Source of the DNA: Candidatus Rokubacteria bacterium CSP1-6
GTDB lineage: Bacteria > Methylomirabilota > Methylomirabilia > Rokubacteriales > CSP1-6
DNA: 38,863 nt
Assembly (NCBI GenBank): GCA_001443385.1
Contig: LDXP01000018.1
Coordinates: 1 to 38,863 of the forward strand
Direction: 5' to 3'
In this document: in pieces, positions 30,918-31,370 of the stretch
Position numbering within the stretch: position 1 is the stretch's first letter
Layout of the letters: each line of letters starts with the position of its first letter
The notes under the pieces: model-generated
What the model was told of the DNA's origin: nothing
What the model saw: only the letters and a program-made list of their open reading frames with translations
Databases searched by the model: none
Program-made: the position numbers and the translations under genes

Positions 30918-30964
30918 TCACTTCTTCTCCTCTCCCCTCTGGGGAGAGGTAGGGTGAGGGGGCG
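30918..30964. repeat. interspersed palindromic repeat, copy 4
   Basis: Inner arms CCTCTCCCC (30929-30937) / GGGGAGAGG (30941-30949) with loop TCT, then TAGGGTGAGGGGG. It lies directly after the sppA stop and encodes the tail of the minus-strand small protein. Confidence 0.85.
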
Positions 30965-31136
30965 GCGTCTTCTCGTAGCCGTCGCACTCTAAGACGGGCA
31001 GGCGCGGGTACTTGGGGAAGCGCGGATCGGTTTGCGATTTGGCGCAGCGCCAGAACTCAGAACCCTTCGCCGACACGACGCGGCGGCCGTGCAGGCAGTT
31101 CAGGCAGAGACCGACCCGCTTCGCTTCTTTACGCAA
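30918..31136 (-). CDS. small Cys-rich (CxxC) protein with repeat-encoded tail
   Basis: A 72-residue protein starting at TTG 31136; no in-frame ATG or better start is seen. Residues 10-52 have a likely zinc site: LCLNCLHGR (CxxC), then FWRCAKS and PVLECDGYE, with the conserved-looking block DPRFPKYPRLPV between. The last ~16 residues (TPPPHPTSPQRGEEKK) and the stop are encoded by an interspersed repeat copy, so the original C-terminus near DGYE has been replaced or extended. No function is recognised. It lies convergent to sppA. Confidence 0.6.
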   Translation of the reverse strand: MRKEAKRVGLCLNCLHGRRVVSAKGSEFWRCAKSQTDPRFPKYPRLPVLECDGYEKTPPPHPTSPQRGEEKK

Positions 31137-31172
31137 ATACGCATGCCTGACCCCAGGCCCTCCCTTTGCCTC

Positions 31173-31201
31173 TTGACACGCTCGTCACCCGGGGGTACGG
31201 T
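31173..31201 (+). promoter_or_regulatory. sigma70-type promoter of the candidate structured RNA
   Basis: A perfect -35 TTGACA (31173-31178), a 17-bp spacer and -10 TACGGT (31196-31201; 3 of 6 consensus bases including the key T, A and T). The predicted start, about 31208, is exactly the first base of the closing helix of the RNA described next. No open reading frame with an SD follows on the plus strand. Confidence 0.55.
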
Positions 31202-31207
31202 GAAATT

Positions 31208-31370
31208 GCCCTGAGGAATCGGACGCCGGTCCTAGAACCGGAGGGCCACTGGACGAGAGGCGGGTCAGTTGGGGCCGCAAGGTCCCAAAGGGCAGGTCGC
31301 TCACCTCGGCTGAACGTGCGGCCGGAGGTTGCCAGCCCAAAAGCAGACTTCCTCAGGGCTCTTCGTTTCT
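31208..31370 (+). ncRNA. candidate structured non-coding RNA (~150-160 nt), family unknown
   Basis: The 5' end GCCCTGAGGAA (31208-31218) pairs perfectly over 11 bp with TTCCTCAGGGC (31349-31359). Inside are three hairpins: CCGGT (31226-31230) / ACCGG (31237-31241); TTGGGGCC (31269-31276) / GGTCCCAA (31281-31288) capped by a GCAA (GNRA) tetraloop; and ACCTC-GGC (31303-31310) / GCC-GAGGT (31321-31329, one G bulged). A pyrimidine-rich TCTTCGTTTCT follows the closing helix. A promoter places the transcript start at its first base. The region has no credible coding frame and lies between two convergent minus-strand and plus-strand gene ends. It does not match 6S, SRP, tmRNA, RNase P or common riboswitches by eye. 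Confidence 0.6.

Follow-up and report, generated by a model that had tools for sequence, protein, structure and literature searches.

6S RNA (RF00013) is a free-standing gene whose transcript has its ends joined by a helix and forms a rod with a central bubble. The Rokubacteriales RNA described here resembles it in its apparently free-standing gene, its helix-joined ends and a CTTGAC-type promoter in the same organisms, but differs from it in its predicted three-way junction, in having no sequence or model match to it, and in coexisting with canonical 6S RNA in the same genomes. PMC2864571 and PMC11109978 concern orphan structured non-coding RNA motifs detected by comparative genomics, which share with our RNA a conserved, covarying intergenic structure in one lineage; the newness of the RNA is judged against the families deposited in Rfam.

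The window, i.e. the whole 38.9-kb stretch of DNA analysed, lies on contig 18 of a 2.88 Mb Rokubacteriales MAG, and its SppA has relatives up to 93% identical in Candidatus Rokuibacteriota records. Rokubacteria are uncultured bacteria of soil and subsurface (groundwater), and no report of their own small RNAs was found in the open-licence literature. We have very little doubt that the window carries a real RNA gene under selection. The reading that we favour, and regard as fairly probable, is a free-standing small RNA, new to Rfam, that would act in trans through a three-way-junction core, likely by binding a protein or a ligand. Our confidence in it is lower than that in the gene itself, because the mechanism of action is less sure.

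The promoter and the RNA together span 31173-31359 on the plus strand; the RNA takes up 152 nt and is closed by a helix of 11 bp, P1. The 5' strand of P1, GCCCTGAGGAA (31208-31218), and its 3' strand, TTCCTCAGGGC (31349-31359), are perfectly complementary over the 11 bp and enclose 130 nt, just as the initial annotation had read this helix. An 11-bp inverted repeat by itself is unremarkable, and 13 of them at 30-160 nt spacing occur in the window versus about 4.7 in shuffles. The single sequence folds at -78.8 kcal/mol, with z = -2.35 for the plus and -0.94 for the minus strand against shuffles; this evidence is suggestive only, and it is the comparison with relatives that makes the structure convincing. 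Following the 5' strand of P1 is the conserved unpaired J12, UCGGAC[A/G] (31219-31225), identical or with one or two substitutions in all 11 members that we collected, and then the P2 hairpin CCGGU-CCUAGA-ACCGG (31226-31241), also found in 11/11, with the loop consensus CYNAG[A/C]. The variable P3 domain (31243-31338) has at its base GGGC (31243-31246) paired with GCCC (31335-31338), and includes the long arm A (31255-31302), tipped by UUGGGGCC-GCAA-GGUCCCAA, and hairpin B (31303-31329). A purine-rich linker, J31 (31339-31348), defined from the alignment, leads back to P1.

A DNA search located the segment in seven genomes beyond the window's own, and the covariance model R1, built from those eight sequences, added three short members, G032, G014 and G038 (79, 79 and 78 nt). 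The same 11 members and no others were returned by a J12+P2 pattern search of 95 genomes of the class and by a second model. The RNA is thus found in 11 of 60 Rokubacteriales genomes, across three families and in one copy per genome, a count from which very divergent members may be missing, with the model searches scoring part of the first-look candidates. Besides the window and the three short members, the set comprises G001, G002, G016, G021, G022, G035 and G037, and the member lengths are 152, 151, 150, 124, 137, 79 and 78 nt. No match was found in viral contigs and plasmids. We rejected a weak R1 match in G091 (22.6 bits), which has neither promoter nor P2 and reads as coding sequence, other P2-pattern matches with no promoter or P1, and the match L026 near sppA, taken as chance.

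The members differ mainly in P3, which starts GGG...CCC. Six of them have the arm UUGGGGCC-GNNN-GGUCCCAA plus the second hairpin, and hairpin B is retained in these six long members. P3 is modified in G035 and G037, where unrelated hairpins replace hairpin B, and has shrunk to a short hairpin in G014, G032 and G038, which lack arm A and hairpin B; for G014, where the minimum-energy fold is a different one, the short hairpin is less certain. Because these short members (78-79 nt) keep P1, P2 and a P3 stem, we take P1, J12 (UCGGAC) and P2 as the core and P3 as variable. The three hairpins first noticed in the window are present there. The GNRA loop assigned to one of them holds in the window (GCAA, 31277-31280) and in most long-form relatives, but G022 has GAGG and G035 a loop of three bases. 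The proposed TGCGGCC/GGCCGCA pairing occurs in the window, in the variable part of the RNA, but it is not conserved, and it looks like chance because it is disrupted in both G016 and G022, and some members do not keep hairpin B itself.

Selection on the RNA is indicated by its identity, which exceeds that of fourfold-degenerate sites in neighbouring genes: it is 87-97% identical to its five closest members versus 34-81% at such sites in the flanking genes. Compared with G021, the window has 95% identity in the RNA and 55% (sppA) and 34% (nudix) at the fourfold sites; compared with G022, the values are 88%, 57% and 45%, respectively. The collected homologues also show covariation, which the initial annotation had named as the check on its helices. 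In the 11-member alignment A6, 97.3% of the base-pair cells are standard pairs and 13 of 50 base pairs have double compensatory changes, a level reached by none of 500 shuffles, while slid structures drop the paired share to 32-56%; A6 was fitted to the structure and its pair counts lean toward it, and an alignment made with no structure fitting has 3 double changes only, among 8 sequences. P2 is paired in every cell of the 11-member alignment, with double changes in two of its five pairs; arm A is paired in 94.9% of its cells, with G-U and compensatory changes; and pair 4 of the P3 base varies as CG/UA/AU/UG. P1 is nearly invariant, and its covariation support comes from G038, with changes of A-U to G-C, G-C to A-U and A-U to G-C; the same member has G-C to A-U and U-A to C-G in P2. 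G014, G032 and G038 lie outside the R1 training set, yet retain P1 and P2. We favour the plus strand because of the promoter and the retained G-U pairs, and discarded a minus-strand RNA on the same grounds; the minus strand folds less stably in all six ~150-nt members, but not in G037, G032 and G014. An alternative hairpin, UCGGAC-NCCG-GUCYGA, was likewise set aside: some members could form it, but its pairing is disrupted in G037 and G038, whereas compensatory changes preserve P2.

The promoter (31173-31201, plus strand) consists of TTGACA (31173-31178), 17 nt and TACGGT (31196-31201), and the first base of P1 follows after 6 nt. It is therefore aimed at the first helix base as the initial annotation claimed, and this spacing is conserved in relatives: TTGACA-17-TA[G/C]NN[T/A] stands 6-7 nt before the helix (GCCCTG) in 10 of the 11 members, and the remaining one, G038, has a looser match. 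The pattern TTGACA-N15-19-TANNNT has two matches in the 38.9-kb window, one of them being this promoter. Its -10 box is weak, and a generic sigma-70 scan did not pick it up because that box matches at 3/6 positions only. The 6S genes of the order carry a similar CTTGAC-type box upstream. From this sigma-70-type promoter we infer a transcript start at 31208. The pyrimidine-rich TCTTCGTTTCT comes right after the 3' strand of P1; no standard intrinsic terminator was found at the 3' end of the RNA, which probably lies just past P1 in this U-rich stretch. We also observed an inverted repeat, (T)TCACC-N9-GGTGA(A) (31182-31206), which spans the -10 box in six close genomes and is not seen in distant members; it could be an operator or chance.

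All members adjoin sppA and/or a CoA-pyrophosphatase-like NUDIX gene. In the window and most relatives, sppA with a divergent gene for a small cysteine-rich protein lies to the left of the RNA, and a convergent enoyl-CoA hydratase (ECH) or NUDIX gene lies to the right. The cysteine-protein gene is about 4 kb from the RNA in G016 and on a different contig in G038, and in about 20 other family genomes it meets the NUDIX/hydratase gene across a short gap with no RNA. On the SppA and NUDIX trees, 3 changes account for the presence of the RNA, versus about 8.5 with shuffled labels. Ancestral presence followed by losses would explain this pattern, because the RNA occurs in the f3/f4 genomes and in two f1 lineages; we thus infer that it was vertically inherited from an ancestor of Rokubacteriales and lost in several branches. 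Such patchy loss implies that it is not essential.

The small cysteine-rich protein (30918-31136, minus strand), with the pattern GLCxxCxH...F.RC...DPRFPKYPxLPVxxCxGY, has no Pfam or NCBIfam match, and 38 of 59 Rokubacteriales genomes have its gene, mostly beside sppA, with the RNA or not. TTACGCAAATACGCATGCCTGACCCCA (31129-31155), at the start of this gene and adjoining the promoter on its upstream side, is a dispersed REP-like repeat that is matched about 38 more times elsewhere in the genome, often in inverted pairs; G001 has no repeat there. G016 has a second promoter-like stretch, CTTGACACGCTCCTCACCGACAGGTAGCCT (start of L086, G016:C192 near 5638), very similar to the RNA promoter; it lies beside the cysteine-protein gene, at a distance of about 4 kb from the RNA, and precedes a different gene, which suggests a rearrangement.

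No known family was matched by the window RNA in Rfam searches at gathering thresholds and at E <= 10, which gave chance matches only, in agreement with its designation as a new RNA. The suggestion of an unusual 6S-like RNA did not survive. A second, divergent 6S, which would imitate an open promoter and bind RNA polymerase, would fit the size of the long form, its closed ends and its own CTTGACA promoter, but we consider it very improbable: RF00013 has no match to the RNA at gathering, at cmscan E <= 10 or in a search of the window's own genome, canonical 6S lies at other loci in 55/60 genomes of the order, including ten carriers besides the window's genome, the fold is branched, and a 6S-type bubble would not fit into the short forms of about 79 nt. 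Arm A contains the string GGUCAG...G-NNAA-GG, which recalls the letters of SRP domain IV (RF00169) and was taken as a lead only; the RNA matches neither the RF00169 model (bacterial small SRP RNA) nor SRP domain IV, and of 8 carriers tested for canonical SRP RNA, 6 have it elsewhere, the window's genome included (G000:C3). The RNase P RNA model (RF00010) does not match either, canonical copies being elsewhere in 5 of 8 tested carriers. Identity as 6S, SRP or RNase P RNA was rejected on these grounds. A 93-aa TTG ORF crosses the RNA, but members differ in length by frame-breaking amounts and hence no frame is conserved, in keeping with the lack of coding potential noted at the outset. Promoter-like sequence, covarying structure and no conserved ORF together are what an independently transcribed structured small RNA would present, and with purifying selection and the lack of an Rfam match they strongly support the structured RNA with its own promoter.

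The position between convergent transcription units and the pyrimidine-rich tail after P1 could point to a cis element, i.e. a bidirectional terminator, an antisense regulator acting on the convergent ECH/NUDIX operon, or a leader of the downstream gene. It cannot well be a leader because no same-strand gene follows, the next genes in the window and most relatives being on the opposite strand; moreover, the downstream neighbour changes (ECH or NUDIX) and the RNA does not, in genomes with no RNA the same neighbours are still there, separated by a few tens of bases, and a branched core with conserved unpaired bases is more than a terminator needs, all of which leaves a cis role unlikely. A miniature mobile element (MITE) with 11-bp terminal inverted repeats would explain the perfect ends and the presence or absence among genomes, but seems hardly credible given one copy per genome, an orthologous position in three families, a conserved promoter outside the repeats and a presence that tracks the gene trees. 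A regulatory RNA that pairs with mRNAs through J12 (UCGGAC) and the P2 loop as seeds is possible, though we would not expect it: these are the most conserved unpaired parts, and the RNA has its own promoter and convergent neighbours, but the seeds measure only 6-7 nt and are locked in the junction, the 5' end is sealed within P1, and an Hfq-type tail was not seen. A CsrA sponge was rejected, as G014 and G032 have lost the GGA of J12.

In the free-standing, trans-acting RNA that we favour, RNA polymerase would start at the first base of P1 and transcribe a gene of about 80-155 nt, ending just past P1 at the U-rich tail. Covariation shows a three-way junction in which P1 brings the 5' and 3' ends together, the conserved loop sits on P2 and P3 varies in length. 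The convergent orientation of the downstream genes makes action in trans plausible. J12, P2 and the junction core would most likely bind a protein or a small ligand, P3 being an arm at the periphery. We prefer this to pairing with mRNAs, though with modest confidence, on account of the sealed 5' end and of where the conserved unpaired bases lie, namely in the junction and in a short loop.

A small RNA gene kept at one locus across three families, and outdoing its neighbours' synonymous sites in conservation, is under selection, and the two lengths in which it occurs (about 79 and about 150 nt) reveal its working core. We speculate, as a rather doubtful further step, that Rokubacteria may have in it a trans-acting RNA of a new class, with a three-way-junction core that would sense a ligand or titrate a protein; if true, this would be a riboswitch-like binding core free of any mRNA, with a removable P3 domain. 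The genomes that lost the RNA provide a natural comparison set for its partner.
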